Source of the DNA: Adlercreutzia sp. ZJ176
GTDB lineage: Bacteria > Actinomycetota > Coriobacteriia > Coriobacteriales > Eggerthellaceae
Assembly (NCBI RefSeq): GCF_011038975.1
Contig: NZ_JAAKEC010000013.1
Coordinates: forward strand, 1-64,000
DNA: 64,000 nucleotides
Direction of reading: 5' to 3'
Shown piece after piece: positions 10,175 to 25,900 of the stretch (positions are counted from its first letter, which is position 1; the number at the start of each line of letters is the position of its first letter). The notes under the pieces were generated by a model. The model was not told the origin of the DNA and did not search any database. It saw only the letters and a program-made list of their open reading frames with translations. The translations under genes and the position numbers were made by a program.

Positions 10175-10687
10175 CTACTGATCCTTGTCGGCGACGAGCA
10201 TCAGGATGCCGGCAACCATGTTCAACACCAGCAGACATGCGATGCCGAAACCCGTCGTGTTGGCCTTCTTCCCTTGGTAGATGTTGTAGCTGTGGACCGT
10301 CATGGGTATGCTCCACGCGAGCCCGATGATGCTGAAAGCCCAGCATACCGTGCTGATGATGTTGAATATGAATGCGATCATCAGCAGCGTTTTCTGCTTG
10401 TCGGGCCTTGGGTAAACAACGTCGGACGGCGTAACGGGCTGAGCCTGATACGTCTGGGCGGGCGCAGCCTGGCCGTATGCGAGTTGCTGGTTCGGCGCCA
10501 CGCTCGCGTTTACCGGCTGGGGCGCTGCCACATACGGCTGTTGATACGCCTGCTGTTGGTAGGGCATCGCTTGCTGCACCGGCTGCTGCATCTGCGAAGC
10601 AACGCTGCCCTGTCCGCCAAGCGGCGCACCGCAATGCCCGCAAAACGCCCCTTGCCTCACTTCTTTCCCGCAATTGCCGCAAATCAT
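10175..10687 (-). CDS. Zinc-ribbon multi-pass membrane protein
   Basis: The protein has 170 residues. It begins with a zinc ribbon: Cys3, Cys6, Cys16 and Cys19 in MICGNCGKEVRQGAFCGHCG. A glutamine/proline/tyrosine-rich linker of about 70 residues follows, then about three membrane helices (TLLMIAFIFNIISTVCWAF and following). The ATG at 10687 follows GAAGGAGC. It is the last gene of the long minus-strand cluster that contains the kinase, phosphatase and FHA proteins, and it shares the zinc ribbon with three other cluster members. The function is unknown; zinc-ribbon membrane proteins of this kind are common in Gram-positive envelope loci. Confidence 0.75.
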   Translation of the reverse strand: MICGNCGKEVRQGAFCGHCGAPLGGQGSVASQMQQPVQQAMPYQQQAYQQPYVAAPQPVNASVAPNQQLAYGQAAPAQTYQAQPVTPSDVVYPRPDKQKTLLMIAFIFNIISTVCWAFSIIGLAWSIPMTVHSYNIYQGKKANTTGFGIACLLVLNMVAGILMLVADKDQ

Positions 10688-10777
10688 GTCTAGCTCCTTC
10701 ACTGGCTTTAATCCTTGGCCACCGTATCCTCTTTTCAGGAGATCTCGTCGGCCAAACTGTCTTTCCGTACGCAAAGC

Positions 10778-10814
10778 GAGACCTCCTTGCGCCCTCGCCG
10801 CGCAAGGAGGTCTC
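10778..10814 (-). terminator. Rho-independent terminator after the zinc-ribbon membrane protein gene
   Basis: A perfect 14-bp stem (GAGACCTCCTTGCG at 10778-10791 with its complement at 10801-10814) and a 9-base loop, placed 5 bases beyond the stop at 10820. The minus-strand 3' flank is GCTTTGCG, a modest T-run. Confidence 0.7.
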
Positions 10815-10819
10815 AAGCT

Positions 10820-11491
10820 TTACGCTCGCGGGGATCCGCAGCGTCCGCAGAACTTCCCAGTGCCAACGTTTCCGCACTCCGGGCAGCGCCATGCCTCATG
10901 CGCCGATGGGGACACCGGCTTGACGCTGCTCGCACCCGCAGCCGGACTCGCCGCAACGCCAGCAGAACCGGCTGGCCCTACCTTCCGCTTCCGCTTGAAC
11001 GACGACTTGATCTCGTCGATAGACTCCGGCCCCGCATCGGTTGCGGCAACGTCGCCCACGATCTTGCTGCGAAGGGCGCGCACGTCAACAGCTTGGCGAA
11101 TCCCAATGAGCGCGTTCTCGAACATGATGCGGCAGAAGAACTGGCCGACGAAGAAGAACACGGCGAAGCCGATCAAGCTCACGAAGAACGCGGCAGCGCC
11201 ACCGGCGAAAGCCGCGATCAGCACGCTTGCCACGCACGTCACAGTGATAGAGATGGCGCTGAAAAGATAGAGGAAGCGCAGGACCTGCTCGATGTAGAAG
11301 TGATCGAAGTGGAAGAACTTCCCCAGACCTGACTTTCTGTCAGAGTTCTTGCCCAAGAACTTCACGTAGCCGACTATGGTCAGAACCACGACGGCGATCG
11401 TCGCCAGCAGCAGGACGATGCCCACCGCCATCGCCTGTCCCGCCATCTGCGCCGCATAAGGGCTGTATCCGTAGCTATACACCGTACACAC
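10820..11491 (-). CDS. Multi-pass membrane protein with C-terminal zinc ribbon
   Basis: The protein has 223 residues. An N-terminal tyrosine-rich tail leads into a membrane helix (about residues 20-43), then a cytoplasmic loop and two more hydrophobic segments (about 72-120). The C-terminal 30 residues carry a zinc ribbon (CPECGNVGTGKFCGRCG). The middle resembles the DUF4282-type membrane domain, with low certainty. It lies between the FHA/zinc-ribbon gene and the small zinc-ribbon membrane gene, and is followed by its own terminator. A role in assembling or sensing the envelope cluster is inferred from position only. Confidence 0.7.
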   Translation of the reverse strand: MCTVYSYGYSPYAAQMAGQAMAVGIVLLLATIAVVVLTIVGYVKFLGKNSDRKSGLGKFFHFDHFYIEQVLRFLYLFSAISITVTCVASVLIAAFAGGAAAFFVSLIGFAVFFFVGQFFCRIMFENALIGIRQAVDVRALRSKIVGDVAATDAGPESIDEIKSSFKRKRKVGPAGSAGVAASPAAGASSVKPVSPSAHEAWRCPECGNVGTGKFCGRCGSPRA

Positions 11492-11557: not shown

Positions 11558-12703
11558 CTAAGCGCGGCTCGCAGCCTGCGCCGCCGCAAGGCACCACTTC
11601 TCCCCTACGTGGAACACGAACTCCTCATCACCGAGAGAGAACTCCGTCTCGTCCTGGATCTCGACCAGCGCATGAGGAGACAGGGCGACCCCTCCTATCT
11701 TGGTTTTGTTTGCAGAGCCGAGGTCGCTCAGGTAGTACTTCCCGTCACGCGAGACGATCTCGGCATGCTTGCGGCTGATCGCCGAGTTGCCCGTCATGCA
11801 GCACGTCGCCTCCGAGCCGCGACCAAGCACCAAGGGGGGCTCTGCCACGAACATCTCTCCCGTCGCCTTCCTGAACAGCGACACGAGGTTCTGCTCGACC
11901 AATATGGTAGTCTCGCTGAAGTCTTCTGAGCGATAGTCCTCAGACAAGACGAGCGTCTGGTATTCGTCCTCGTCTTCAGCCTGCTCGCGCAGCGGACGGA
12001 CAGGAGGCGCGCTCTGGTCCAGGGCCTTCTTCGGCATCTCCGCCTGAGCACGTGCCGGCGTCTCCACCCGAGCCTGCTCTTGCCTTGCCACCTGCCCCGC
12101 AGCGCTGGACGCGCTCGGCACGGAAGCCGCAGGCTCAGGCTCATCTACGAGGACGCGCCCACATTGGGTGCATTTCGTCACGCTTGCGTCGAGGATGGCG
12201 GAACAACCCGGACATATGGTGATGGCGCCTTCCGGCACGTAGTCTATGCTCATCGCGCCTTCGTCATCGTACGCCATGCTGGATTCCGGCTCCGCCGTCA
12301 GCGGCTCAACGAAGGTCTGCCCTTTCGACGGCTGCCCAGCCGACGCTTGACTCATCGGCACCTGGCTCATCGGCGGCTGCTCCGCGGGCCTCGCGGGCTC
12401 TGCGGGCTCCGCAGGCTCCACGGGCTCCACGGGCTCTACGCGCACCGCTCTCTGCTCTGGCGCAACCGTGCTGGAAGCCGCCCGCGCAGGCTCTTCGCGC
12501 ACAGCTTCCCCGCTACGCGCAGGGGTCTCCTGACGCAGCGGCGCGCCGCAGTATATGCAGAACAGTCCCGTTCCTTCGACCGCCTGCCCGCAGTTACCGC
12601 AGGTAGCCGTCACCTCAACCTCTCGCGGCGTGCCGCAGTGGGTGCAAAACCTCTCATCACCCTGAAAAGGCGCGCCGCAGTGGGTGCAAAATCCTAGATA
12701 CAT
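11558..12703 (-). CDS. FHA-domain protein with three zinc ribbons
   Basis: The protein has 381 residues and no membrane segment. Zinc ribbons sit at Cys6/9/20/23, Cys35/38/49/52 and Cys164/167/178/181. A proline/glutamate-rich linker follows, then a C-terminal FHA domain at about 285-365 with the signature residues VLGRGSE, SAISRKHAEI and LGSANKTKI. FHA domains bind phosphothreonine. Just before the FHA domain two T-x-x-L motifs (Thr250 in EYQTLVLSED and Thr265 in FSETTILVE) sit where GarA/OdhI-type FHA proteins carry their regulatory phosphothreonine. The protein may therefore be a kinase substrate that folds onto its own FHA domain. The ATG at 12703 has AGAAGGAG upstream. The kinase and phosphatase genes lie in the same cluster (23251-25900). 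Confidence 0.85.
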   Translation of the reverse strand: MYLGFCTHCGAPFQGDERFCTHCGTPREVEVTATCGNCGQAVEGTGLFCIYCGAPLRQETPARSGEAVREEPARAASSTVAPEQRAVRVEPVEPVEPAEPAEPARPAEQPPMSQVPMSQASAGQPSKGQTFVEPLTAEPESSMAYDDEGAMSIDYVPEGAITICPGCSAILDASVTKCTQCGRVLVDEPEPAASVPSASSAAGQVARQEQARVETPARAQAEMPKKALDQSAPPVRPLREQAEDEDEYQTLVLSEDYRSEDFSETTILVEQNLVSLFRKATGEMFVAEPPLVLGRGSEATCCMTGNSAISRKHAEIVSRDGKYYLSDLGSANKTKIGGVALSPHALVEIQDETEFSLGDEEFVFHVGEKWCLAAAQAASRA

Positions 12704-12746
12704 GGCTTCTCCTTCTAAGCGCAGATCACATTTGCGTTGCTCGTTG

Positions 12747-13877
12747 TCAAGGCTTGACGAGGCGCACCGTCGGGAGCAGCGCCTTGAACTTGACATAGTC
12801 CTTGTTTTGCCCGGAGGAGTCTTGCGCTGCTTCCAAGGGGGCGCATATCTCGTCGCGGTGCTCGCTCGGCTTCTCGTAAGACAAGCTCACCTTCCATGCG
12901 CGGTCGATGACGTCAATGCGATTCCACAAGTACTCGTAAAGCTGGCACATGCTCTCCCAAGCGCCGTAGTTCACAGACCAAAACGGCATCTTGACGCTCT
13001 TCAAGCTCTCCCACTTCGCCTTTATCTCCGACTTCAGATTGGCCGCCGCACGGGCCTCCGAAGATCGCGTCGACATGGACTCACGCGCATAGTTGTTGTT
13101 GAAGTCGCTTGAGCATCGGGCAACTTCGGAATCATAGGCCCTGATGTCCGCAAGACTCTCAACAAGGATGTGGTAAGCCTCTGAGTCAGAAAGGCCACTC
13201 GACGAGCCAGGAGAGGACGATCCCGGAGCTGGGACCACGGGGGTTCCGCCTGACGTCATGCCATCCGAGCTCTTGCTCGAGCTGCTCTCCGATCCAGAAT
13301 GCGAGTTCAGGCTGAGGCCTCCTTCCCCTGAGGAGCTCCCGGACGCTGACGGCTGGCCGCTCGCCGACGTCGCGCTTGAAGTAGCGCCTGCGTGCGTCGC
13401 CTCGCCCTTCGGACCAGCGAAGATGACCACGAGGCTGACAACAAGCGCGATCACGGCCACGGCAGCGAGGGCGGCGAGGGCTATCACGAGCGTACGGTTC
13501 TTCTTCGCTTCGTCTGATCCGCTCGACTCGTGAGGGGAAAAGCCTGGCGAGGACGGCTGCGTCGACGCTGATGCCGGGGAGTGGGCCGTAACCACAGGGC
13601 GCACAGTCGAAGAAGGCGGGATGTTCGAGCCGGTGGCTGAGCCATATGCCGCTCCGCCCCTTGGCGAAGTCCGTCCCTCCTTCGCTCGCAGATGAACGGG
13701 CTCGACTACCGTATCCCTGAACCGGCTTGTTCCGTTGTTGAGCACTTCGGTATCTGAGCGGCCATCACCCACGGCGTCAAACTCCCCCGTTGTGCCGCGT
13801 GATCCGAGGAGCGTGCCGCAGTTTGTGCAAAAGACCAGATCAGGACTTATCTCACTTCCGCAATTCTCGCAACGCAT
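12747..13877 (-). CDS. Zinc-ribbon single-pass membrane protein
   Basis: The protein has 376 residues. The N-terminal zinc ribbon is Cys3/6/17/20. A cytosolic segment contains an acidic TxxL motif (Thr43 in SDTEVLNN). One membrane helix lies at about residues 129-153. The outer part has a Ser/Gly-rich linker and a helical domain of about 140 residues at the C-terminus (from SEAYHILVESLADIRAYDSEV). The likely topology is N-inside, C-outside. The start is the ATG at 13877 with GGAAGGA upstream; a GTG directly before it is less well spaced. The outer helical domain is not recognised. Confidence 0.75.
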   Translation of the reverse strand: MRCENCGSEISPDLVFCTNCGTLLGSRGTTGEFDAVGDGRSDTEVLNNGTSRFRDTVVEPVHLRAKEGRTSPRGGAAYGSATGSNIPPSSTVRPVVTAHSPASASTQPSSPGFSPHESSGSDEAKKNRTLVIALAALAAVAVIALVVSLVVIFAGPKGEATHAGATSSATSASGQPSASGSSSGEGGLSLNSHSGSESSSSKSSDGMTSGGTPVVPAPGSSSPGSSSGLSDSEAYHILVESLADIRAYDSEVARCSSDFNNNYARESMSTRSSEARAAANLKSEIKAKWESLKSVKMPFWSVNYGAWESMCQLYEYLWNRIDVIDRAWKVSLSYEKPSEHRDEICAPLEAAQDSSGQNKDYVKFKALLPTVRLVKP

Positions 13878-13935
13878 CACGTGTCCTTCCGTCGCTTTCC
13901 GAGCTGCTCAACCCAGCTCGTCCGCCCAACCAAAA

Positions 13936-13968
13936 GGGAGGCCGCATCACGCTGAGACGCGGCCTCCC
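13936..13968 (-). terminator. Rho-independent terminator after the protease-FHA gene
   Basis: A perfect 10-bp stem GGGAGGCCGC/GCGGCCTCCC with a 13-base loop, followed on the minus strand by TTTTGG. It lies 35 bases beyond the stop at 14003. Confidence 0.75.
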
Positions 13969-14002
13969 CCTGCGCACCTATGCGAAGGCGCCTTCCTTTT
14001 GC

Positions 14003-15613
14003 CTACGCGCTGTACTTGAACTTCTCGTCAGCGAGGGTGACCACGTCACCGCTCTTGAGCAGGATCTTCTGGCCCGGGCGAACCTTCACGCCGTTCACGT
14101 ACGTGCCGTTCGCGGCCTTCTGGTCGACGAGGTAGGTCTTGCCGTCCTCAACCAGGAAGCGCACATGGATGCGGCTGATGGAGCTGTTGCCCTCGAGGCA
14201 GTAGCTCACCTGGCTGCGCTCGCGCCCGATGGTGAACTCGGCGCTGTTGATGGGGATGTGCTCGTTCGTGCTCATGCGCGTCAAGCTGCCGCCGCTCGCC
14301 GCCTGGAACAGTATGATGGTCTCGCTGCCGTCAGGAGCGAGAACCGTGGTGCTCTCTGTCTGAGAATCAGGCAGCGGATTGACGGGATGGAAGGTGGCCG
14401 GCGCCGTGGCGGGCGCATTGTCCTTAGGCTCATCCTTCTTGGCGCCCTTCTTCTTACGCGACATCACGACGACTACGACGATGATCGCGATGACGGCGAC
14501 GATCGCGACGATGATGCCGATGATAGCCGGCAAGGGCAGTCCTTCGGGAGCCTCCTCGAGCGCGGCGACCGCGTCGTTCAGCGCCTTCGTGGCATCATCA
14601 ATCTGGGCCTTCTTGTCGTTGTACTCGCTCTCGCTGGTGTTGTCCTCAAGCTCAAGGTTGAGGGCTTCCTTCGCCGGAGCGAGCGCTGCAGTCACGGCCT
14701 TGTAGCTCTCCTCGGTGTACTTCGAGGCGTCCAGCGCCTCAGCAGCAGCAATCGCGGAGTTGAGGCTCGAGAAGGGCAGATTGTAAACCGGCTCGGGATC
14801 GGGATCTATGCCATGCTTATTATACTCAACGCCCAGGTCGTCAAGCACCTCCATGATCTTGTCACTGGCCGCCGCATAGTAGAAGCTGCTGTCGCTCATG
14901 AGGGACACGCCCACCGCGTAGCCGTTGGCGTCAACCATGGGGCCGCCCGAGTCGCCGCCCGACATGGGGCAGTTCGTCTGCAGATAGTAGCCGTTGATGG
15001 TGAACAGGTCAGAGGTCATGCCCTGGTAGATGCCCTCGACCTTGCTCACCGTGCCGTTCTTGATGGTCACATCGTCAGTCGTGTACGTGTTGATGACCTT
15101 GAGGTCGGAGTTCGCAGGGAAGCCGATGGTGTACACCGGCTCAGCAGCCTTCACTTCCATGCTGTTGCGGAACGTCAGCGGCTTGTGGTTGTTCACCACC
15201 TGGTCGAGCTTGAAGATGGCGAAGTCCTGCGCCTCCGAGGCGTTCACGAGGGTGGCGCCAACCGTGACGTCACGGTTGATGGTGACCGAATAGGTCATGC
15301 GCGACTTCAGATCCTGGATGTCCTGACCGGAGTAGCCGAACAGGTCCAGCTCGTTCTGGCTGAAGAACGTGCAGTGATAGCCCGTGATGACCGTGTCATC
15401 ATTGATCAGGAAACACGAACCGCGCGAGTACTCGGCGCCGTCAATGCTCCAGTTGAACTTCATGACACCGCTTGCCGCCGAGCGCACCGCCTCTTCGTCA
15501 GCATGTGCCTGGGTGGCAGGCAGAGCCGCTATGCCGGCCGCCATGAGCATGGCCAAGCACGCAGTGACGAAGAAGCTCAGCAAGCGCATGCCCACTGACT
15601 TCATTTCCTTCAT
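14003..15613 (-). CDS. Membrane-anchored trypsin-like protease with cytosolic FHA domain
   Basis: The protein has 536 residues. It has a signal peptide (LLSFFVTACLAMLMAAGIAALPATQAHA, cleavage near residue 38) and an extracellular trypsin-like domain with a probable triad of His80 (TGYHCTFF), Asp130 (AQDFAIFKL) and Ser222 (GGDSGGP). Next come a FIVAR-like helical repeat at about 283-351, a membrane helix at 363-384 followed by RKKK, and a cytosolic C-terminus with an FHA domain at about 440-534 (FTIGRERS, SSISRIHVRF, ANGTYVNG). Two TxxL motifs (Thr422, Thr432) lie between the membrane and the FHA domain. The ATG at 15613 has AAAGGAGG upstream. The topology links a cell-surface protease to a phosphothreonine reader inside, which fits control by the kinase in the same cluster. 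Confidence 0.88.
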   Translation of the reverse strand: MKEMKSVGMRLLSFFVTACLAMLMAAGIAALPATQAHADEEAVRSAASGVMKFNWSIDGAEYSRGSCFLINDDTVITGYHCTFFSQNELDLFGYSGQDIQDLKSRMTYSVTINRDVTVGATLVNASEAQDFAIFKLDQVVNNHKPLTFRNSMEVKAAEPVYTIGFPANSDLKVINTYTTDDVTIKNGTVSKVEGIYQGMTSDLFTINGYYLQTNCPMSGGDSGGPMVDANGYAVGVSLMSDSSFYYAAASDKIMEVLDDLGVEYNKHGIDPDPEPVYNLPFSSLNSAIAAAEALDASKYTEESYKAVTAALAPAKEALNLELEDNTSESEYNDKKAQIDDATKALNDAVAALEEAPEGLPLPAIIGIIVAIVAVIAIIVVVVVMSRKKKGAKKDEPKDNAPATAPATFHPVNPLPDSQTESTTVLAPDGSETIILFQAASGGSLTRMSTNEHIPINSAEFTIGRERSQVSYCLEGNSSISRIHVRFLVEDGKTYLVDQKAANGTYVNGVKVRPGQKILLKSGDVVTLADEKFKYSA

Positions 15614-15730
15614 CCTTTTCCTCCTTTTTCCTTGGTTACGCAAGCCGGCACATCCAGTGCGCGTCTGCTTGCATATCCCATACCTGCTATCTGAAAAGAC
15701 GGCTTGGCCGCTCTTCACAAAGGGAGAGGA

Positions 15731-15775
15731 GGGAGGCCAAGTTGCCAAGCCTCTGGCTGTCCAAGCCTCCCTCGG
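15731..15775 (-). terminator. Probable terminator after the giant surface-protein gene
   Basis: A 9-bp stem GAGGGAGGC/GCCTCCCTC with a long, partly self-paired loop, about 10 bases beyond the stop at 15786. The minus-strand 3' flank is CTCTCCCTTTG. The T-run is weak, so read-through to the protease gene is possible. Confidence 0.5.
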
Positions 15776-15785
15776 TTAGATGCCG

Positions 15786-18700
15786 CTACTGCTGAGCAGG
15801 GGCCGCCTCTTCTTCCTGGTCCTTCTTGCGCTTGAAGAGGAAGAACCAGATGAGGCCTGCCGCCACCAGCGCCGCCGCGCCTACGAGCCACATCCAGTAC
15901 AGCTCAAAGAAGTTGGTCGTCACGTGGAACTTCTCCACCACCACCTTGTCCGCAGAACGTCCTGCGAAGTCAACGGCGGTTATCTCCATGTTGCGATCAG
16001 TGAAGGCCTTCGCCGGCACCGAGACCTTGCACAGGCCGCTTGCCTCGGGAGTCACCTTCTGGGTGGCGCCGTCGAGCGAAACCTCAACCTCGTTGATGCC
16101 GATGTTGTCCGTCACCGTGAAGGTCACGTCGTAGGCGTCCGCGTTGTACATCTTGTAGCTCGCGACGTTCTCGCCGTCGATGATCGGGTCGGCCGTGTCG
16201 AGGATGAATGTCACCTCGGCGTTAGCCACCTCATGGGCCTCGGGCTCGTAGTAACTCGCCGAGTTGTTGAGGTTCGTCGCACGGTCAGTCGAGCTCACCA
16301 CCACGTGGTAGTTGCCATCTTCGGTGAAGTTAGCGCCCGGCACATGGTAGTAGTAGGAAGCCCATCCGTAGCTGTCTTCGCCAGCCTGGATGTAGTAGCC
16401 CCCCTCCTGGCCGCTTGCCGAGGAGGTCCTCTCCAGGTTCTCCGTCTTCAGGCCATGGGTGACCGACACGCCATGCTCTTCGCTCTCAGAGCCGCATACG
16501 TTGATCTCTTGAATGATGACCTCGGGAGCTTCGGCCATGTAGCCGTTGTGCTCAGCGTACTTCTCCTGATCAACCACGATGAAGTTGGATCCGAAGCGGT
16601 TGACGGAGAACACGATGCTGTTCTCGGCCTCGTTGCCGGCAAGGTCGACCAGCGTGGCCTCGAGCGTGTAGATGTCGTCAGACTCCACTTCGCGCGTGAA
16701 GTCGGCGTAGGACACCGTCTCGCCGTTGCCGTTGCCAGCACGCGATGCGTCAAAGGTCTTCACGCCGTTCTTGTTGCCCGTAAGGGTCCAAGCAACGCCG
16801 TTGCTGTCGAAGTTCTTCTCGTCCATGAAGGTGATGACCGGCGCAACCGTGTCGTTGTAGGCAACGCCTTCCTCAACCTCGCTGAACGTGATCGTCGGGG
16901 CCGTCAGGTCAACCGTGAACTCTTCCTCGGTCTGCTCGGCCGTGTTGCCGGCCTTGTCAGCGATGGCCACGCTCAGGTTGTAGTCGCCGTCCGTGGTGAA
17001 CGACACCGTGGCCGTGTGGACGTCGCCGTTGGTGGACCAGCCGCCGATGCTGCCGTTGGACGTGATCACCGAGTTGGCCTCGTCCCAGTTGTGCTCGGTC
17101 ACCGTGATGGTCGCCGTGCGGGCGGCCTTGTAGTACTTGCCGTTGCGCACGTCGTTGTTGTCCCACGTGATGGAGTTGATCACGGGCGCCGTCTTGTCGA
17201 TCGTGAACTCCTCGAAGTCCAGGGTCGTGGTGTTCGTCGCGGGGTCGACGAGCTTGGCCGCCAGCGTGTAGTGGCCGTCGCTCACGAAGTCCATCGACGT
17301 GCTGTAGCTGCTACCCGACCCGGCGAAGTCGTTGACCGTCACCGGAGCCCACTGCGTGAGGGCGCGACCTGCCGTTCCGGCGTACTGCGACACCTGGATG
17401 ACCTGCTGGCCGCCATCGAAAAGCTTAAGGTAGTTGAAGTTGAGCTCCTCGACTGTCATTCCGATGGTCTGCGTCGTGTTGTAGTAGGAGCCGGGCGTGA
17501 CGCTGGTGTTCCAGCTGAGCTTCGGCGGCTTCTTGTCGAGCACCAGGGTCATCGGATGCGCGAGCTTGTCGATTACGTCGACCAGCGCGTTATGGACGTC
17601 CTCGCTGGAGCCACGCTTGACCTCCGTCACCGTACCATCAGGCGAAATGTTCCATATGCGGCTGTTTGTCGCGTAGTCGGTCAACTTGATGATGATGTCG
17701 CGGTTGAACTCCGTTCCCTCGATCAGCGAGACGCTGGTCTCGCACTCGCGCCCCTTGTCACTGAGGAGCTTCTCACCGCCGAACGAGAAGGGCTCCTTGA
17801 CCTCTGCTTTCATGAGGCCGTTGTTGTCCTTGAAGATCATGCCCGCAATCGCGTCGCTGTTGTAGAACGCGTAGGGTTCGGAGTAGTTTTTCCCGTCCTG
17901 CTTGCCCGTGTCGCCGTTTTGGTAAGCGTTGGCGTACTTGATGCTCATCTTCACGTCCTCAAGCGTCGGAGCCGTGAGGTCGAGGATGAAACTGGTGCCG
18001 TCGACCTGTGCGCCACTCACATCCGTGGTGGCCTGAGCAGCGCCCTTGTCCATAGCCTTATCGTTGTTGTATCCGTAGGCGTACTTGTTCTCGTGGGCCT
18101 TGACGACAGCGCTATCGTCCCCCGCGCCGGCAGCTCGCACGGCCGTATTCACCTTGTCGACAGCGACAACATTCAAAGTGCTGGCGGCGCCTCTGTCGTT
18201 CTCCGTGTAAGTAACCTTGGCGGTCCACGTCTCGCCGCTCTTCGTCCTCGTCCATACGTTGCCGCCGTCCTTCTGGATAGTTCCCTTATCAGAAGGCGTG
18301 ATGGTCGTCTTCTCAGCGTCGAAGTTGCGGTCGGTCACCGTGATGGTAGCGGTCATATGCTCGCTATTCTCATCGCACGTACCGTAGTAGTCGATCCCAT
18401 CATGAGCACCCTGCTTTGCCTGGTTGATCTGCACCGACACGCTCGGTGCTGTGAGGTCGAGAACAAAGCTGTCGCCGCCGACAGGGACGCCCTTGGCTGT
18501 GGTAGCCTGTGCGCCGCCATAGGGAGCGGTCTTGCTCTCGTCCTTCTTGTCACCGTAGGCGTAGTCGTTCCCGTTCCCGGCCATGTCAATCGCAGCCACC
18601 TTGAGAGCGCCCGCCTCGCCGACAGCGTTCTCCTTGTAGGAGACCCTGGCGGTCCACTTATTGGGGTCCTTCACGTCCTGCGTCCACGTCTTGCCGTCGT

Positions 18701-21700
18701 CAACCAGGACCTTGCCGTTACCAGAGCACTCGACCATGGTGCTAGCGTCGAAGTTGCGGTCAATCACCGTGATGATGGCAAGAAGCTCGTCGTCCTTGTT
18801 GCCCGAGGCGTAATAGTCGGTCTTGTCATCACCGACGCCAACCAAAGGCTGGTCCATCTCCACAGACACGTTGGGCATCGTCAGGTCAACCGTGAACTCT
18901 TCCTCGGTCTGCTCGGCCGTGTTGCCGGCCTTGTCGGTGACGGCCACGCTCAGGTTGTAGTCGCCGTCCGTCGTGAACGACACCGTGGCCGTGTGGACGT
19001 CGCCGCTGGTGGACCAGCCGCCGATGCTGCCGTTGGACGTGATCACCGAGCTGGCCTCGTCCCAGTTGTGCTCGGTCACCGTGACGGTCGCCGTGCGGGC
19101 GGCCTTGTAGTACTTGCCGTTGAGAACGTCGTTGTTGTCGAACTCCACGTCGATCGCAGGCATCGTCAGGTCGACCGTGAACTCGTCCTCGGTCTGCTCG
19201 GCCGTGTTGCCGGCCTTGTCGGTGACGGCCACGCTCAGGTTGTAGTCGCCGTCCGTCGTGAACGACACCGTGGCCGTGTGGACGTCGCCGCTGGTGGTCC
19301 AGCCGCTGACGCTGCCGTTGGACGTGATCGCCGATTTGGCCTCGTCCCAGTTGTGCTCGGTCACCGTGACGGTCGCCGTGCGGGCGGCCTTGTAGTACTT
19401 GCCGTTGAGAACGTCGTTGTTGTCGAACTCCACGTCGATCGCGGGCATCGTCAGGTCGACCGTGAACTCGTCCTCGGTCTGCTCGGCCGTGTTGCCGGCC
19501 TTGTCGGTGACGGCCACGCTCAGGTTGTAGTCGCCGTCCGTGGTGAACGACACCGTGGCCGTGTGGACGTCGCCGTTGGTGGACCAGCCGCCGATGCTGC
19601 CGTTGGACGTGATCACCGAGTTGGCCTCGTCCCAGTTGTGCTCGGTCACCGTGATGGTCGCCGTGCGGGCGGCCTTGTAGTACTTGCCGTTGCGCACGTC
19701 GTTGTTGTCCCACGTGATGGAGTTGATCACGGGCGCCGTCTTGTCGATAGTGAATCCATCTACGGTCTTCACCGTTTCGTTGCCGGCCTTGTCGGTCACG
19801 GCCACGCTCAGGTTGTAGTCGCCGTCCGTCGTGAACGACACCGTGGCCGTGTGGACGTCGCCGCTGGTGGTCCAGCCGCTGACGCTGCCGTTGGACGTGA
19901 TCGCCGATTTGGCCTCGTCCCAGTTGTGCTCGGTCACCGTGACGGTCGCCGTGCGGGCGGCCTTGTAGTACTTGCCGTTGAGAGCGTCGTTGTTGTCGAA
20001 CTCCACGTCGATCGTCGGCGCCGTCTTATCGATCGTGAACTCCTCTAATTTCAGCTCCGCGGAGTGCATCGCGGGGTCGACGAGCTTGGCCTCCAGCGTG
20101 TAGTGGCCGTCGTTCACGAAGTCCATCGACGTGCTGTAGCTGCTGCCCGAGCCGGTGAATTCTTTGACCGTCACCGGATCCCACTGCACGGTGGCACCGC
20201 CCGCCTCGTCAGAACGCTGCGACACCTGGATGACTGGCTGACCACCGTCATGATCCTTGAGGTACTTGAAGTTGAGCTCTTTGATATCCAGTCCGATGGT
20301 CTGCGTCGTGTTGTAGTAGGAGCCAGGCGTGACGCTGGGGTTCCAGCGAAGTTCCGGGGACGTCTTGTCGAGCACCAGGGTTATCGGGTGCGCGAGCTTG
20401 TCGATCACGTCGACCAACGCGTTGCCGACGCTTTCAGGGCTGTTGCGCTTGACTTCCTTCACCTCGCCCTCGGGCTCGATGCTCCATGTGCGGGTGTTGT
20501 TCGCGTAGTCGGTCAGCGTGACGATGATGTCGCGGTTGAACTCCGTTCCCTCGATCAGCGAGACGCTGGTCTTGCACTCGCGCCCCTTGTCGCTAAGGGA
20601 CTTCTCACCACCGAACGTGAAGGGCTCCTTGACCTCTGCTTTCATGAGGCCGTTGTTGTCCTTGAGGATCATCTCCACTATGGCGTTGGCATCGTAGAAC
20701 GCGTAGGGTTCGGAGTAGTTTTTCCCGTCCTGCACGCCCGTGTCGCCGTTTTGGTAAGCGTTGGCGTACTTGATGCTCACCTTCACGTTCTCAAGTGTCG
20801 GAGCCGTGAGGTCGAGGATGAAGTCCTTGCCATCGACCTGATTGTTGTCCGCATCCGTGGTGGCCTGGGCGCCGCCGTAGGGAGCAGTCGTGCTCGCCGG
20901 CTTTTTGCCACCGTAGTTATAGTGGTTCTCGTTCCCGGCCTTGTCGACCGCGGTCACCTTGAGCGCGCCCGCCTCGTCGATGGCGTTTTCCGTGTAGTCA
21001 ACCTCGGCGGTCCACTTGCTGGGGTCCTCCGCGTCCTGCGTCCACGGCGCGGCGACGTTCTGAACAGTCCCGTTGTTCGAGGGCGTGATGGTCGTTACCG
21101 CCGCGTTGAAGTTGCGATCGGTCACTGTGATAGTCGCCACCAGTTTGTTACCATAGTAGTCGGTCGTCTGATAGGTATTCTGCTTTGCCTGGTCGACCTG
21201 CACCGACACATTGGGTGCCGTGGGATCGAAAACGAAGCTGCGATCGTCAACCTGATTGTTGTCCGCATCCGTGGTGGCCTGGGCGCCGCCGTAGGGAGCA
21301 GTCGTGCTCGCCGGCTTTTTGCCACCGTAGTTATAGCGGTTCTCGTTCCCGGCCTTGTCGACCGCGGTCACCTTGAGCGCGCCCGCCTCGTCGATGGCGT
21401 TCTCCGTGTAGGCGACCTCGGCGGTCCACTTGCTGGGGTCCTCCGTGTCCCGCGTCCACGTCACGCCATTGGTGGCTTTGACGATTCCATTGCCCGAGGG
21501 CGTGATGGTCGTCTTCTCAGCGTCGAAGTTGAGGTCGGTCACCGTGATGATAGCTGTCAGCTCGTTACTGCCGTTAACGGAAGCGTAGTAACTAGTATTG
21601 TTGTCGGTGCCAACCAGAGGCTGATCCATCTTCACGGACACATCGGGGGTCTGCGTGTCAAGCTCAAGTGCCGGAGCTGTTACTTCTTTATTTCCATTAG

Positions 21701-22346
21701 TCGAGCTAACTGAGACAAAAAGGGTCTGGCCGGCCTCGTAGTCCGCAATGTCATATGTCACGGTACTATTCGTAGCAATAATCGTTTCAATCGGCTGTCC
21801 GTTACGATTGATGGTGACTTCATCGTTTGTGAAAAGGTTCGCCACCACCACACGAATAGCTATAGGACCCTTCACTACTTTGTTGTCGGCTAGGTTTTTC
21901 CCGTCAGCAGTAAAGAACAACACCTCGGGTGACTGATTTACGGAGGGATTATCAGAAGTCGTACCAGTGCCACTGGAATCGGTGCCTGTAGTGGCATCAG
22001 ATCCAGACGTCTCGGCAACTACTGCAGGCTCCTCTGCAGCAGGCAAGCTGGAGTCGGCATCATCCTTCTCCGCGGATTCAGTCTCCCCAGATTCTGTCCC
22101 CACAGATTTAGTCTTCTCGGGATCATCTGTTTGGGGCTCGGGCGTCTCAGGCGTCTCCTTTGCCGCATTGTCTTCGCTGACAACAGCAGGCTCAGACGTC
22201 GTCGTCGCGAGGGCTGCTGCGGGGAACAGCAGGCATACAAGCGCGAAGGACAAGAACACGCGCGATGACGTGCTCAACGCGTTCTTCGCGTCGTTAATCG
22301 CTGAGCGCATGCGATTAACATGCTTACCTTTGTAGCGTTTAAACAT
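15786..22346 (-). CDS. Giant Ig-like repeat surface protein, single C-terminal membrane anchor
   Basis: The protein has 2186 residues. It has a signal sequence (hydrophobic about 30-47, ending AAALA), then an acidic Ser/Thr-rich region to about residue 115. Some 2000 residues of bacterial Ig-like beta domains follow, linked by recurring TAP and DKAGN motifs. A membrane helix sits near 2150-2170, then FKRKKDQEEE. There is no LPXTG motif, so it is anchored by the helix. A unit of about 95 residues, recognisable by GKYYKAARTATVTVTEHNWDE, occurs four times in tandem (about 770-1155) and once more at about 1715-1815. A larger domain starting near VSIKYANAYQNGD is also duplicated (about 505-669 and 1452-1615). 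The ATG at 22346 follows AAGGAGCC and lies 2 bases after the upstream stop. It is probably an adhesin or surface filament. Confidence 0.85.
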   Translation of the reverse strand: MFKRYKGKHVNRMRSAINDAKNALSTSSRVFLSFALVCLLFPAAALATTTSEPAVVSEDNAAKETPETPEPQTDDPEKTKSVGTESGETESAEKDDADSSLPAAEEPAVVAETSGSDATTGTDSSGTGTTSDNPSVNQSPEVLFFTADGKNLADNKVVKGPIAIRVVVANLFTNDEVTINRNGQPIETIIATNSTVTYDIADYEAGQTLFVSVSSTNGNKEVTAPALELDTQTPDVSVKMDQPLVGTDNNTSYYASVNGSNELTAIITVTDLNFDAEKTTITPSGNGIVKATNGVTWTRDTEDPSKWTAEVAYTENAIDEAGALKVTAVDKAGNENRYNYGGKKPASTTAPYGGAQATTDADNNQVDDRSFVFDPTAPNVSVQVDQAKQNTYQTTDYYGNKLVATITVTDRNFNAAVTTITPSNNGTVQNVAAPWTQDAEDPSKWTAEVDYTENAIDEAGALKVTAVDKAGNENHYNYGGKKPASTTAPYGGAQATTDADNNQVDGKDFILDLTAPTLENVKVSIKYANAYQNGDTGVQDGKNYSEPYAFYDANAIVEMILKDNNGLMKAEVKEPFTFGGEKSLSDKGRECKTSVSLIEGTEFNRDIIVTLTDYANNTRTWSIEPEGEVKEVKRNSPESVGNALVDVIDKLAHPITLVLDKTSPELRWNPSVTPGSYYNTTQTIGLDIKELNFKYLKDHDGGQPVIQVSQRSDEAGGATVQWDPVTVKEFTGSGSSYSTSMDFVNDGHYTLEAKLVDPAMHSAELKLEEFTIDKTAPTIDVEFDNNDALNGKYYKAARTATVTVTEHNWDEAKSAITSNGSVSGWTTSGDVHTATVSFTTDGDYNLSVAVTDKAGNETVKTVDGFTIDKTAPVINSITWDNNDVRNGKYYKAARTATITVTEHNWDEANSVITSNGSIGGWSTNGDVHTATVSFTTDGDYNLSVAVTDKAGNTAEQTEDEFTVDLTMPAIDVEFDNNDVLNGKYYKAARTATVTVTEHNWDEAKSAITSNGSVSGWTTSGDVHTATVSFTTDGDYNLSVAVTDKAGNTAEQTEDEFTVDLTMPAIDVEFDNNDVLNGKYYKAARTATVTVTEHNWDEASSVITSNGSIGGWSTSGDVHTATVSFTTDGDYNLSVAVTDKAGNTAEQTEEEFTVDLTMPNVSVEMDQPLVGVGDDKTDYYASGNKDDELLAIITVIDRNFDASTMVECSGNGKVLVDDGKTWTQDVKDPNKWTARVSYKENAVGEAGALKVAAIDMAGNGNDYAYGDKKDESKTAPYGGAQATTAKGVPVGGDSFVLDLTAPSVSVQINQAKQGAHDGIDYYGTCDENSEHMTATITVTDRNFDAEKTTITPSDKGTIQKDGGNVWTRTKSGETWTAKVTYTENDRGAASTLNVVAVDKVNTAVRAAGAGDDSAVVKAHENKYAYGYNNDKAMDKGAAQATTDVSGAQVDGTSFILDLTAPTLEDVKMSIKYANAYQNGDTGKQDGKNYSEPYAFYNSDAIAGMIFKDNNGLMKAEVKEPFSFGGEKLLSDKGRECETSVSLIEGTEFNRDIIIKLTDYATNSRIWNISPDGTVTEVKRGSSEDVHNALVDVIDKLAHPMTLVLDKKPPKLSWNTSVTPGSYYNTTQTIGMTVEELNFNYLKLFDGGQQVIQVSQYAGTAGRALTQWAPVTVNDFAGSGSSYSTSMDFVSDGHYTLAAKLVDPATNTTTLDFEEFTIDKTAPVINSITWDNNDVRNGKYYKAARTATITVTEHNWDEANSVITSNGSIGGWSTNGDVHTATVSFTTDGDYNLSVAIADKAGNTAEQTEEEFTVDLTAPTITFSEVEEGVAYNDTVAPVITFMDEKNFDSNGVAWTLTGNKNGVKTFDASRAGNGNGETVSYADFTREVESDDIYTLEATLVDLAGNEAENSIVFSVNRFGSNFIVVDQEKYAEHNGYMAEAPEVIIQEINVCGSESEEHGVSVTHGLKTENLERTSSASGQEGGYYIQAGEDSYGWASYYYHVPGANFTEDGNYHVVVSSTDRATNLNNSASYYEPEAHEVANAEVTFILDTADPIIDGENVASYKMYNADAYDVTFTVTDNIGINEVEVSLDGATQKVTPEASGLCKVSVPAKAFTDRNMEITAVDFAGRSADKVVVEKFHVTTNFFELYWMWLVGAAALVAAGLIWFFLFKRKKDQEEEAAPAQQ
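16900..17200 (-). repeat. Distant fifth copy of the 285-bp Ig repeat
   Basis: This segment is almost identical in DNA to the tandem copy at about 19460-19745 (same coding for DNNDVRNGKYYKAARTATITV), although 2.5 kb away. That level of identity points to recent duplication or gene conversion within the giant gene. Confidence 0.75.
18880..20040 (-). repeat. Four tandem copies of a 285-bp coding repeat
   Basis: Homologous positions recur at 19121, 19406, 19691 and about 19979, a period of 285-288 bases (95-96 residues). Copies are nearly identical in DNA, including silent positions. Such arrays tend to change copy number by recombination. Confidence 0.85.
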
Positions 22347-22348
22347 GG

Positions 22349-23251
22349 TTAGGCTCCTTGCTCCGCTTGTATGAGATCAGTGCTCTCCATGAGCACAATC
22401 TTCCTGACTATCTGGAAGTTCCCGCGATCTTCCACCTCGGAAACGTCGTTTTCCCGCTCTGCCGCCTCCTTGGGCTCTTCCGCAGGGGAAGGCTCAAGTT
22501 CCGGCTCAGACTCCGGTTCAGACTCGATTTCAGGTCCTGCTTCGGGCTCCGGCTCAGACTCGGGCTCGATTTCAGACTCAGCCGCCGCCTCAGGCGCATC
22601 GGACTCTTCCTCGGGTTCCTCGGAGGCCTCGGAGGCTTCGGACTCCTCAGCCTTCTCTGACTCCACCTCGTCCTCGTGGAGAATCGTCGTATGCTCACCG
22701 TCCTCGCCTTGGAGAAGAGTGGTCTCCGCGACCTCGGCTTCGGTTTCAGCTGCAGGCTCAGCCAGCGTCGTGGTCTCGGCTTCCGCCTCCTCTTCAAGCA
22801 CCCGGGTCGACTCGGCGTCCTCGCTCGAAGCGCTCGGCGCGCTTGCCGGCGCGCTTGCCACGCTGCCCGCGTTCTGGGAAGGCAGGTCCTTCGTAGGCTC
22901 AGCTGCAGTGATCGCAGCGGAAGGGGCTTCGCTCGAACTCGAAGGCGCCACCTTCGCAACCCCTTCGCTCGAAGCAGCTGCAGCGCCCGAAGAGCTCGTG
23001 GCGACGATGGGACCCGTCGGCTCCGCTGAGCTTCCGTTTCGCGCAAGCTTGCCGCTGCGATAGCGAGAAGACTGCCTTCCGCGTCCGCTCTGGCGTTCGC
23101 TCAGCTCGCGGAGCTGCTTCTTCCCGGTAAGCTCGGCATGGACGTCAGCTATGTTCCGCGAGACGAACACATAGACGGCAAGCGCGATGAACACCACCGC
23201 CAAGATGAAGAATACGATGCCCGCGAAGAAGAGGATCTGCTGTACGCTCAT
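22349..23251 (-). CDS. Acidic single-pass membrane protein with repeated TxxL motifs
   Basis: The protein has 300 residues. An N-terminal membrane helix (about 5-30, FAGIVFFILAVVFIALAVYVFV) is followed by a basic segment (to about 72), consistent with the C-terminal tail being cytosolic. The tail is Ser/Ala-rich and then extremely acidic (Glu-rich, 145-275). It carries four acidic-context TxxL motifs: Thr149 (ESTRVLEEE), Thr160 (ETTTLAE), Thr177 (ETTLLQGED) and Thr188 (EHTTILHED). A TxxI follows at Thr291 near the C-terminus. These look like multisite phosphorylation targets for the adjacent kinase and docking points for FHA domains. Its start overlaps the kinase stop (ATGA), and it ends 2 bases before the giant gene, so the three are one translational unit. 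No known family was recognised. Confidence 0.75.
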   Translation of the reverse strand: MSVQQILFFAGIVFFILAVVFIALAVYVFVSRNIADVHAELTGKKQLRELSERQSGRGRQSSRYRSGKLARNGSSAEPTGPIVATSSSGAAAASSEGVAKVAPSSSSEAPSAAITAAEPTKDLPSQNAGSVASAPASAPSASSEDAESTRVLEEEAEAETTTLAEPAAETEAEVAETTLLQGEDGEHTTILHEDEVESEKAEESEASEASEEPEEESDAPEAAAESEIEPESEPEPEAGPEIESEPESEPELEPSPAEEPKEAAERENDVSEVEDRGNFQIVRKIVLMESTDLIQAEQGA

Positions 23252-25077
23252 CAGTTCGCCCCCTTAGCCGTCGAGGAGGCCGCAGCGTCAGAAGAACCCG
23301 ACGCTGATCCTTGGTTCAGCACGCCTATGTTGTTGTACGTGTTCTTGACGTTGTTGGCTGCATTCGGATAGCCGCTGACGATCGTCTCGTAGAGGGTGTT
23401 CGTCAGCTCGTTCTTGTTCGCGTCTCCCGCCAATGCGAGCGTCTGCTGGTAGACCTCCTGCAGCAGGCTGTCCACGCGCGACTCGGAGATGCCCGCGCGC
23501 CTGAAGCCGTTCAGGTACACAGGGGAGTTGATGGCTTGGAACACCACGTCATACAGACGCAGCCTGACGATAACCGGGTCGCTGTCGTCAAGGTTGGTGC
23601 ACGCCTGCTCGAGCGCATCCCAATACGTTGCGTACGACTCTCCCTCGGTGCCCTCCTGCGTCGCGCGCGAGAGGGTCTGGGAGAACTCGCCGATGGTCTT
23701 ATAGACCTCTGCCGCGCGGCGCTCTTGGTCGCTCAGCGTGCAAGGCTGGCCCTTCCCCGTGCGGGAGTCGTAGCTTTCAATAGCATAGTTGAACCAGGTG
23801 ACGGCTTGCGATCCGCGCGTGAGTTCGTCGCCGTAGCTGAAGTAGATGAAGTAGTCGATCCCGGCGTCATAGCAGAGCTTCGCATAATCGGCGGAGTCGC
23901 TGATGCTGCCCTTGTTCGCCTCGAACAGCGCAGCCCACCTCGACGACTCTGACGTGGTGAACGCCGAGTCGTCCTTGTACACCTCGTTCACCAGGTTGCT
24001 GTACGGCTCGATGCTGTCCGGGGACACGTCGATGGCCTCGACGTAGAGGCTCTCTGCGGGCGACGCCTGGTCGCCTACCTCGGCCGTGCTCGCCACCGCC
24101 GCGCGCTCCATGAGGCTGTCGTAGCTTGAGCCGCGCACGATGGCACTCGCCGCCATGCATCCGATGCCGAGGACCAGGCACGCCACGCCCGCCACGGCGA
24201 ATCCGAGGAAGGTGTTCTGCTTGCGCTTGAGCTCCTGGATGTGCTCCTCGATCTGGTCCTCAGGCTTGTCGAGCGCGAGCCACAGCTCGTCGCAGCTCTG
24301 GTAGCGCTGGTCAGGATCCCATTTCGTGCACTTCTGGATGATGTTGTCGAGACCCTGGGCCTTGCGCCCCGAGAGAGCGGGGTTCACCTCCATGATGGAA
24401 GGCAGCGTCGGGCGATCGATGAACTGCATGGGGCCATAGCCCGTGACAAGGTGGAACAGCGTCACGCCGAGCGAGTAGATGTCAGACCGCGCATCAGTTT
24501 GAACGCCCTTCTTGAACGACTCGGGAGGCGCGTAGCCTCGCGTTCCCAAGGGCATCGTGTCATCGGTTTTGCCAGCCTTATACTCGCGCGCGATGCCGAA
24601 ATCGATAATCTTCGCCTTGCCGTCTTCGCGACGAAGCATGACGTTACCGGGCTTCATGTCGCGATAGATGACGTTCTGGCTGTGAAGATAGCCGAGCGCA
24701 TCGCATATCTGCTGGCCCCAGTCCAGCACGTCCTCCAAGGCGAAAGCCGACCCGCGCTTTTTCAGCAGGTCGCGCAGATCCTCGCCGGGAACGTGCTCCA
24801 TGACCACGAAGAGGGTCGAGTCCTCGGTGATGATGTCCACGATCTGGGCGATGCCATCATGCTTGTCAAGCTTCTGCATGATGGCGGCTTCCTTCTTCAG
24901 GCTCTCAAAGGAAACGCGATGCGTCTCGGTGCTCGCGTTCTCCTTGATTTCCTTGATAGCCCACTGCTTGTTGCTCATGTGCAGGTCTGACGCCAGCCAG
25001 ACAACTGACATGCCGCCCCTGCCCAGCTCTTCAATTATCTTGTATCTGCCGCCGACTACAGCTCCCACTTGGGCCAT
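23251..25077 (-). CDS. Transmembrane Ser/Thr protein kinase (PknB-type) with extracellular helical domain
   Basis: The protein has 608 residues. The kinase domain spans about residues 10-270: glycine loop ELGRGGMSVV (17-26), catalytic Lys42 (AIKE), catalytic loop YRDMKPGNV with Asp140 (the usual His is Tyr138), DFG at 159-161, and an activation loop with Thr171, Thr174 and Thr179 before GYAPPE. The membrane helix is at about 290-313. The roughly 290-residue outer part is helical, TPR-like, with a Ser-rich C-terminus and no PASTA repeats. It would phosphorylate Thr/Ser on cytosolic partners, with FHA proteins of the cluster as likely readers. The ATG at 25077 has GGAGGT upstream and lies 1 base after the phosphatase stop. 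Confidence 0.92.
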   Translation of the reverse strand: MAQVGAVVGGRYKIIEELGRGGMSVVWLASDLHMSNKQWAIKEIKENASTETHRVSFESLKKEAAIMQKLDKHDGIAQIVDIITEDSTLFVVMEHVPGEDLRDLLKKRGSAFALEDVLDWGQQICDALGYLHSQNVIYRDMKPGNVMLRREDGKAKIIDFGIAREYKAGKTDDTMPLGTRGYAPPESFKKGVQTDARSDIYSLGVTLFHLVTGYGPMQFIDRPTLPSIMEVNPALSGRKAQGLDNIIQKCTKWDPDQRYQSCDELWLALDKPEDQIEEHIQELKRKQNTFLGFAVAGVACLVLGIGCMAASAIVRGSSYDSLMERAAVASTAEVGDQASPAESLYVEAIDVSPDSIEPYSNLVNEVYKDDSAFTTSESSRWAALFEANKGSISDSADYAKLCYDAGIDYFIYFSYGDELTRGSQAVTWFNYAIESYDSRTGKGQPCTLSDQERRAAEVYKTIGEFSQTLSRATQEGTEGESYATYWDALEQACTNLDDSDPVIVRLRLYDVVFQAINSPVYLNGFRRAGISESRVDSLLQEVYQQTLALAGDANKNELTNTLYETIVSGYPNAANNVKNTYNNIGVLNQGSASGSSDAAASSTAKGAN

Positions 25078-25078
25078 G

Positions 25079-25900
25079 CTACTCACCTCCCAAGGGGGTT
25101 GTCTCGGCAGTCTCGTCATCTTGGCAGCACAGGCACGCGACGGTTATGTTGTCGCGCTCACCGCGTTCCAAGACCAGCTTGATGAGGGAATCGCAGCTCT
25201 GCTGGATCTGCTCCTCCGTCGCATGGCTCAGAGAGCCGAAGGACTCCACCAGCTCGTCGTCGAACAGCTCGTTGCGGAAGCCGTCGCAGCACACCATGTA
25301 CGTCTCGCCGACCTCATACGTGCCGCTGCCGAACACGGGCTGAAGCTCGCTCTGGGTTCCGACCGACTGGAGGATGACGTTGCGCTTCGGATGGAAGCGG
25401 GCCTTCTCGGGAGGGATGTTCCCTCGCGCTACCTCCTGGGCCACCCACGTCTGGTCTTTGGTGAGGATCTCCATCTCGCCGCCAGCGAACCGGTAGACGC
25501 GCGTGTCGCCGACATGTCCGATGAGGTAGCGGCCCTGGTAGAACAAAATGGCCGTGAACGTCGTTCCCAGCTGAGTGTCGTGGTCCCGTCCGTAGTCGCG
25601 AACGAGCGTGTTCATCCGGTCAAGCCCGAAGCTCCACTGGCTCTGAACTATGTTGAGCACCCCGGCGGGGTCCGACGCGAGGCGCTCGCACGTTTGAACG
25701 AACATCGTCTCGAACCAGTTCACCAGCCACGTCACAACCGAAGCGCTCGCAACCTCTCCCTGGGACAGCCCGCCGACACCGTCACATACCGCAACGAGCG
25801 CCGCTTCGCCCGAGGAGGTCTGAATTACTTCTATGCAGCAGCTGTCTTGATTGGACTTCTTGCGCGGACCAATATTCGTCTGCGCCGCAACGCGAAACAC
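25079..25900 (-). CDS. PP2C-type protein phosphatase
   Basis: This 273-residue cytosolic PPM phosphatase is expected to reverse phosphorylation by the adjacent kinase. The metal-binding motifs are in order: RKKSNQDS (Asp19), AVCDGVGG (Asp40), IGHVGDTRVY (128-136), MVCCDGF (Asp206) and RDNITVACL (Asp250, Asn251). The C-terminal tail carries AETTPLGGE, a TxxL motif like those in other cluster proteins. The start is GTG at 25900, with an excellent AAAGGAGG upstream. It is the first gene of the long minus-strand cluster, so its upstream region (25901-26280) probably holds the cluster promoter. Confidence 0.93.
   Translation of the reverse strand: MFRVAAQTNIGPRKKSNQDSCCIEVIQTSSGEAALVAVCDGVGGLSQGEVASASVVTWLVNWFETMFVQTCERLASDPAGVLNIVQSQWSFGLDRMNTLVRDYGRDHDTQLGTTFTAILFYQGRYLIGHVGDTRVYRFAGGEMEILTKDQTWVAQEVARGNIPPEKARFHPKRNVILQSVGTQSELQPVFGSGTYEVGETYMVCCDGFRNELFDDELVESFGSLSHATEEQIQQSCDSLIKLVLERGERDNITVACLCCQDDETAETTPLGGE

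Follow-up and report, generated by a model that had tools for sequence, protein, structure and literature searches.

A recurrent acidic T-x-x-L motif as a candidate phosphothreonine tag of a kinase, TsdH-like and FHA membrane module in Adlercreutzia sp. ZJ176

A gene cluster of Adlercreutzia sp. ZJ176 encodes a membrane kinase, a PP2C-type phosphatase and two FHA proteins, and several of its products carry short acidic stretches in which a threonine is followed by leucine at position +3. The question is whether this motif is a shared phospho-switch, written by the kinase, read by the FHA domains and erased by the phosphatase, as a first-pass annotation of the locus had inferred. The window, by which we mean the whole 64,000-nucleotide stretch of contig NZ_JAAKEC010000013.1 that was analysed, carries all of the cluster genes on the minus strand, and they are given here in order of transcription from the PP2C to the zinc-ribbon FHA protein, followed by two downstream genes.

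25079-25900, minus strand: PP2C-type phosphatase (TsxF-like) with C-terminal motif AETTPLGGE; PF13672, 54% identity to the PP2C of locus L206.
23251-25119, minus strand: membrane Hanks kinase (TsdD-like) with a cytosolic kinase domain, one TM and an extracytoplasmic C-terminal region; PF00069, E=2e-49.
22349-23251, minus strand: TsdH-like acidic protein with an N-terminal TM, juxtamembrane segment (I..V..LTG), acidic tail and C-terminal element FQIVRKIVLMESTDLI.
15786-22346, minus strand: TsdI-like giant protein with a signal peptide, Ig-like repeats (Big_13 and related families) and a C-terminal TM.
14003-15748, minus strand: protease-FHA protein with a signal peptide, trypsin-like protease domain, TM, tandem motif (14303-14356) and FHA domain; PF13365, PF00498.
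12747-13880, minus strand: ZnR-TM, a zinc-ribbon TM protein with SDTEVLNN; zinc-ribbon match.
11558-12796, minus strand: ZnR-FHA, with a double zinc ribbon, disordered part, tandem motif (11894-11959) and FHA domain; PF13240, PF00498.
10820-11491, minus strand: DUF4282 membrane protein (domain match) with a C-terminal zinc ribbon; downstream, possible operon member.
10175-10816, minus strand: zinc-ribbon membrane protein; downstream, possible operon member.

The nature of the cluster can be judged from relatives of its kinase, which shows 33-40% full-length identity to kinases of WXG100/EssC clusters. In other Coriobacteriia, kinases alignable over the whole length adjoin WXG100, an FHA-bearing EssC-type ATPase, and giant Ig-like and single-TM proteins, and those neighbourhoods are the reason for regarding the window proteins as TsdD-like (kinase), TsdH-like (acidic TM protein) and TsdI-like (giant protein). 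The kinase qualifies by full-length alignment and profile match, the acidic protein by its position, TM and shared juxtamembrane and C-terminal elements, and the giant protein by its Ig-like repeats, signal peptide and C-terminal TM, as well as by sharing 31-38% identity with the TsdI-like proteins that other clusters encode. A homologue of ZnR-TM was sought in related clusters and none was found. Judged from sequence alone, the cluster matches the kinase/TsdH/TsdI part of T7SSd/T7SSe, the Olsenella uli type of system, for which the published description likewise gives a TM kinase, a TsdH with one TM, a giant Ig-like TsdI and this gene neighbourhood, with PP2C and FHA proteins also present in T7SSe (PMC11217815).

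Unlike T7SSd and T7SSe, the window genome (99.7% complete, 49 contigs) contains no PF06013 match for TsdA/WXG100 and no TsdC/EssC-type FHA ATPase, the sole match to the latter being a 918-aa FtsK-like frame comprising the ATPase part only. Positive-control genomes in the same search have both, with WXG100 detected in G087, G017, G074, G132 and G158. Assignment of the cluster as a T7SSd was rejected on the absence of WXG100 and EssC from the genome, and since the secretion ATPase and WXG100 are both missing, the module is alone there. In four other genomes (G415, G354, G343 and G408), some of them fragmented assemblies, the kinase has PP2C, TsdH- or TsdI-like neighbours, and neither EssC nor a convincing WXG100 was found. 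The T7SSd membrane module thus seems to exist also in a stand-alone form, with loci at L206, L199, L200, L210 and in the window, the ATPase having been lost or never present in such relatives.

All ten motif strings that the first-pass annotation had reported are indeed encoded on the minus strand, in five proteins, and an eleventh segment of the same T-x-x-L form, absent from its list, lies in the activation loop of the kinase.

22787-22813, 22757-22777, 22700-22726 and 22670-22696, minus strand: ESTRVLEEE, ETTTLAE, ETTLLQGED and EHTTILHED, in that order, in the TsdH-like acidic protein.
11936-11959 and 11894-11917, minus strand: QTLVLSED and SETTILVE in ZnR-FHA.
14330-14356 and 14303-14326, minus strand: ESTTVLAPD and SETIILFQ in protease-FHA.
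13734-13757, minus strand: SDTEVLNN in ZnR-TM.
25082-25108, minus strand: AETTPLGGE at the C-terminus of the PP2C.
24541-24564, minus strand: DDTMPLGT in the kinase activation loop.

The cytosolic location claimed for the ten sites agrees with prediction from hydrophobic segments and flanking charges in every case. A structure model of ZnR-FHA places its sites in a segment modelled as disordered (pLDDT mostly <50) beside a well-modelled FHA domain. The kinase, PP2C and FHA phosphate-site motifs are all intact in the window: the kinase retains K/HRD/DFG, and both FHA domains score above the Pfam cut-off and conserve the phosphate-site residues (GR, S-x-x-H, N-G/K), which read GR, SRKH, NKT in one and GR, SRIH, NGT in the other.

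The sites were set against a background of 754 proteins from about 1 Mb of own-genome stretches, which is not the full proteome, using a score matrix trained only on TsdH tails of other species. Sites of at least 8 bits number 9 among 418 cluster Thr, versus 63 among the other ~12,400 Thr (hypergeometric p = 0.0005), and the cluster is also enriched at 11 bits (p = 0.00016). Without TsdH the values are p = 0.025 at 8 bits and p = 0.0016 at 11 bits, and all ten sites fall within the top 99 of 12,834 Thr by matrix score. The loose pattern, T-x-x-L with an acid within 3 residues, occurs 3.7 times per 1000 residues in the cluster versus 1.3 elsewhere; because it is common in the proteome, no single site is proof. 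The top own-genome matrix match, ETDVL, is in an apparent alanyl-tRNA synthetase, a folded protein, and was taken as coincidence. The PP2C and ZnR-TM sites are single, their conservation is not shown, and they could be coincidental.

Lack of conservation in orthologous clusters had been set beforehand as grounds for refutation, and the motif withstood this test with strong, Thr-specific conservation in TsdH tails and directly upstream of FHA domains, in both Actinomycetota and Bacillota. TsdH homologues were chosen by position and hydrophobicity, so a few may be false members, which would dilute the signal, not create it; the tail was taken from residue 51 onward. The 59 TsdH-like tails that include the window contain T-x-[VIL]-L 135 times versus 7.6 +/- 2.8 in shuffled tails (maximum 18 in 1000 shuffles), and the 58 non-window tails contain it 132 times versus 7.6 +/- 2.7, a 17-fold enrichment of Thr. 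At the same position Ser stays at chance (7 versus 6.4 expected), and Asp and Glu are at or below it. The strict motif is present in 33 of the 58 non-window tails, 26 being individually significant at p < 0.05, and about 25 are without it, some with variants (PTVV, PTQV, AKTTV) and some with none. The window tail has three copies versus 0.06 in shuffles (p = 0.001), that of L206 reads TTVI/TTLR, and unrelated repeats share the core (EEATDILREDD, DEAGTTLLSAD, SEAPTTVLGAE). When the 832 genes called from related loci are scored, most sites of 12 bits or higher belong to TsdH and FHA proteins. As a separate observation, TsdH has a conserved C-terminal element, approximately F-x-V-x-K-x-I-x-x-IHT-x-E-x-I (in the window FQIVRKIVLMESTDLI, 22349-22430), which goes beyond the published 'short unstructured region' and whose function is unassigned.

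The FHA proteins give the second line of evidence. For 43 proteins encoded beside such kinases, a set left incomplete by rough gene calls in low-GC loci, the 90-residue stretches leading up to the FHA domain together contain 38 Thr sites versus 2.3 expected, and 2 Ser sites versus 2.4. Two or more sites occur in 17 of 45 FHA proteins, both window proteins included, spaced mostly 9-12 residues apart and with the second site of the pair about 10-16 residues ahead of the domain; the window pairs lie at -20/-10 and -24/-9. Across 10 aligned FHA proteins the Thr and +3 Leu of both sites (T250, L253, T265, L268) are invariant and the rest of the linker is unconserved. Used as a direct query against genome contigs, the protease-FHA protein found no relative, whereas the kinase alignment did, and relatives in L206, L201, L123 and L119 also have the tandem motif. 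In L206, the nearest orthologous cluster (kinase 46%, PP2C 54% identical), the linker carries E[VI]TTVLNDRG twice, at the place where the window protein has ESTTVLAPDGSETIILFQ. The protease domain of the L206 protein (L206:6581-8914) lacks two catalytic residues, His (TSYSC in place of GYHC) and Ser (RDVGG in place of GDSGG), and is likely a sensor, not an enzyme, going by these residues; the window copy keeps both.

Placement of the sites so close to the FHA domain raises the alternative that the switch is purely internal, as in GarA and OdhI, each FHA domain binding its own phosphorylated upstream motif and TsdH serving as a decoy or bulk substrate. The tandem sites, 9-30 residues ahead of the domain, are what such a switch would use, and the best structural match for the window FHA model is the DgcB FHA-phosphopeptide complex (6hc1; PMC6733907), where the domain binds the phosphorylated N-terminal tail of its own protein; OdhI and GarA are among the matches listed as well. 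This account, which we regard as improbable while keeping it in play, does not explain why TsdH, which has no FHA domain, should repeat the motif as many as ten times with Thr and +3 Leu kept just as strictly, and it sits poorly with the FHA phosphate-site residues, the pThr-binding consensus, reported as conserved in T7SSd/e ATPases (PMC11217815).

The motif might instead act without phosphorylation, as a hydrophobic docking or beta-augmentation element for, say, the kinase or a protease. Hydrophobic residues at +2/+3 with acidic flanks are typical of such short linear motifs, and the tails are kept alongside kinases that have no activation-loop Thr; a strict Thr, with Ser at chance in two protein families, is nevertheless hard to explain without a pThr reader, and we give this option little credence. 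Chance recurrence is scarcely tenable, since biased composition of acidic, Thr-rich low-complexity tails, repeats that inflate counts and a loose pattern frequent in the proteome can be invoked for it, but same-composition shuffled tails give about 18-fold fewer motifs, Ser is not enriched despite a similar chance expectation, and unrelated repeats have arrived at the same core as single-copy FHA linkers.

We therefore prefer, with a probability of roughly three in four, to think of the motif as a phosphothreonine tag common to the proteins of one membrane signalling module, written by the kinase, read by FHA domains and removed by PP2C. Were a Ser/Thr kinase the only constraint, Ser should be tolerated as well, and selection of Thr and not Ser therefore points to a reader that accepts only pThr, as FHA domains do. 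The original reading of the locus is in this respect well supported by comparative genomics and remains biochemically unproven: the sites, with their conservation, placement and restriction to Thr, and the intact domains are demonstrated, but there are no phosphorylation or binding data for these proteins, and phosphorylation, binding, assembly and signal are all inferred. In the proposed mechanism the TM kinase would sense through its outer domain and phosphorylate Thr in acidic T-x-[VIL/P]-L sites, its own activation loop included, marking the cytosolic TsdH tail repeatedly and, in the FHA proteins, the tandem pair just ahead of the FHA domain. FHA domains might then bind pThr-x-x-L both in cis, in the manner of GarA, OdhI and DgcB, and in trans on the TsdH tail, a multivalent dock at the membrane, so that phosphorylation would assemble FHA adaptors, and the FHA-bearing EssC-type ATPase where present, on the kinase/TsdH/TsdI complex until PP2C reversed it and reset the switch. 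By analogy with PpkA/Fha/TssL of T6SS (PMC3953482), the ATPase FHA domains of a full T7SSd/e would dock too; as ATPase and WXG100 are absent from the window genome, the switch there would control the TsdI/protease-FHA envelope complex itself.

There are published precedents. PknA-dependent sites of M. tuberculosis show a preference for acidic residues at -1 and -3 to -6, for Pro at +2 and for Leu/Val at +3 (PMC7164672), and the FHA domains of DgcB and OdhI bind their own tails with hydrophobic residues at +2/+3 (PMC6733907). Like GarA and OdhI, the window FHA proteins have a phosphorylatable TT-type Thr with hydrophobic +2/+3 residues directly N-terminal of the FHA domain, but they differ in their zinc ribbons or protease-TM parts, tandem sites and T-x-x-L form, and against the curated OdhI model they reach only 16-18 bits (cut-off 200). 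Bdellovibrio DgcB (6hc1) likewise has an N-terminal tail Thr that its own FHA domain reads, whereas the window proteins have no GGDEF, two sites each and a separate multivalent membrane tail. In the T6SS PpkA/Fha/PppA system the TM kinase phosphorylates a Thr of a membrane component (TssL pThr14), an FHA protein binds the mark and a PP2C-type phosphatase opposes it to control assembly (PMC3953482), as is proposed here; the window differs in having a motif array instead of a single site, no T6SS genes were seen in it, and the TagH model (T6SS TagH/PpkA) gives 25 bits against a cut-off of 120. The Hanks kinase/FHA/PP2C switch is an already known type, of which the window system is a variant.

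A broader proposal, on which the evidence leaves us evenly divided, is that T7SSd/e and their ATPase-less relatives use a dedicated Thr-specific phospho-code, with TsdH as scaffold, the FHA tandem as a cis/trans switch, and kinase, TsdH, TsdI, PP2C and FHA proteins as an autonomous envelope-signalling module. If so, T7SSd/e machines would use this module, which would not be merely a part of the secretion apparatus. The 2024 description presents TsdH as one TM helix plus a cytosolic part that is short and likely unstructured, and in the section consulted names no phosphosite (PMC11217815); this core component would gain a concrete, testable role as a multivalent phosphothreonine scaffold with named sites to mutate, and the conserved FHA phosphate sites of the ATPases a candidate pThr ligand. 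Secretion control in Coriobacteriia and Lachnospiraceae would be linked to T6SS-like phospho-assembly logic, and an apparent stand-alone form of the module is brought to light.

The kinase loop adds a weaker thread. Its +3 residue matches the tails across loci (28/39 versus 2/19, Fisher 1e-5), yet only about five changes on the tree underlie this, so it is not independent evidence; as independent proof, loop/tail covariation was rejected, the raw association collapsing to two supported independent pairs, and the match is suggestive only. Several family kinases have lost the loop Thr while their tails keep the motif, which means that the coupling of loop to tail is not obligate, and joint loss of the two emerged as no general rule. 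Kinases without the loop Thr (for example GGRHLGT, DGKIVGT) that keep K/HRD/DFG-type residues are found among T7SSd-type kinases from several Coriobacteriales (L198, L203, L204, L207, L215-L217, L224, L225, L227, L230, L231), suggesting, on residues alone, loop-independent activation. In L195, L197 and L064, AKTTV or PTVV tails accompany odd activation loops (ETKVFRT, DTIVSKT), hinting that the kinase loop and the tail code drift together.
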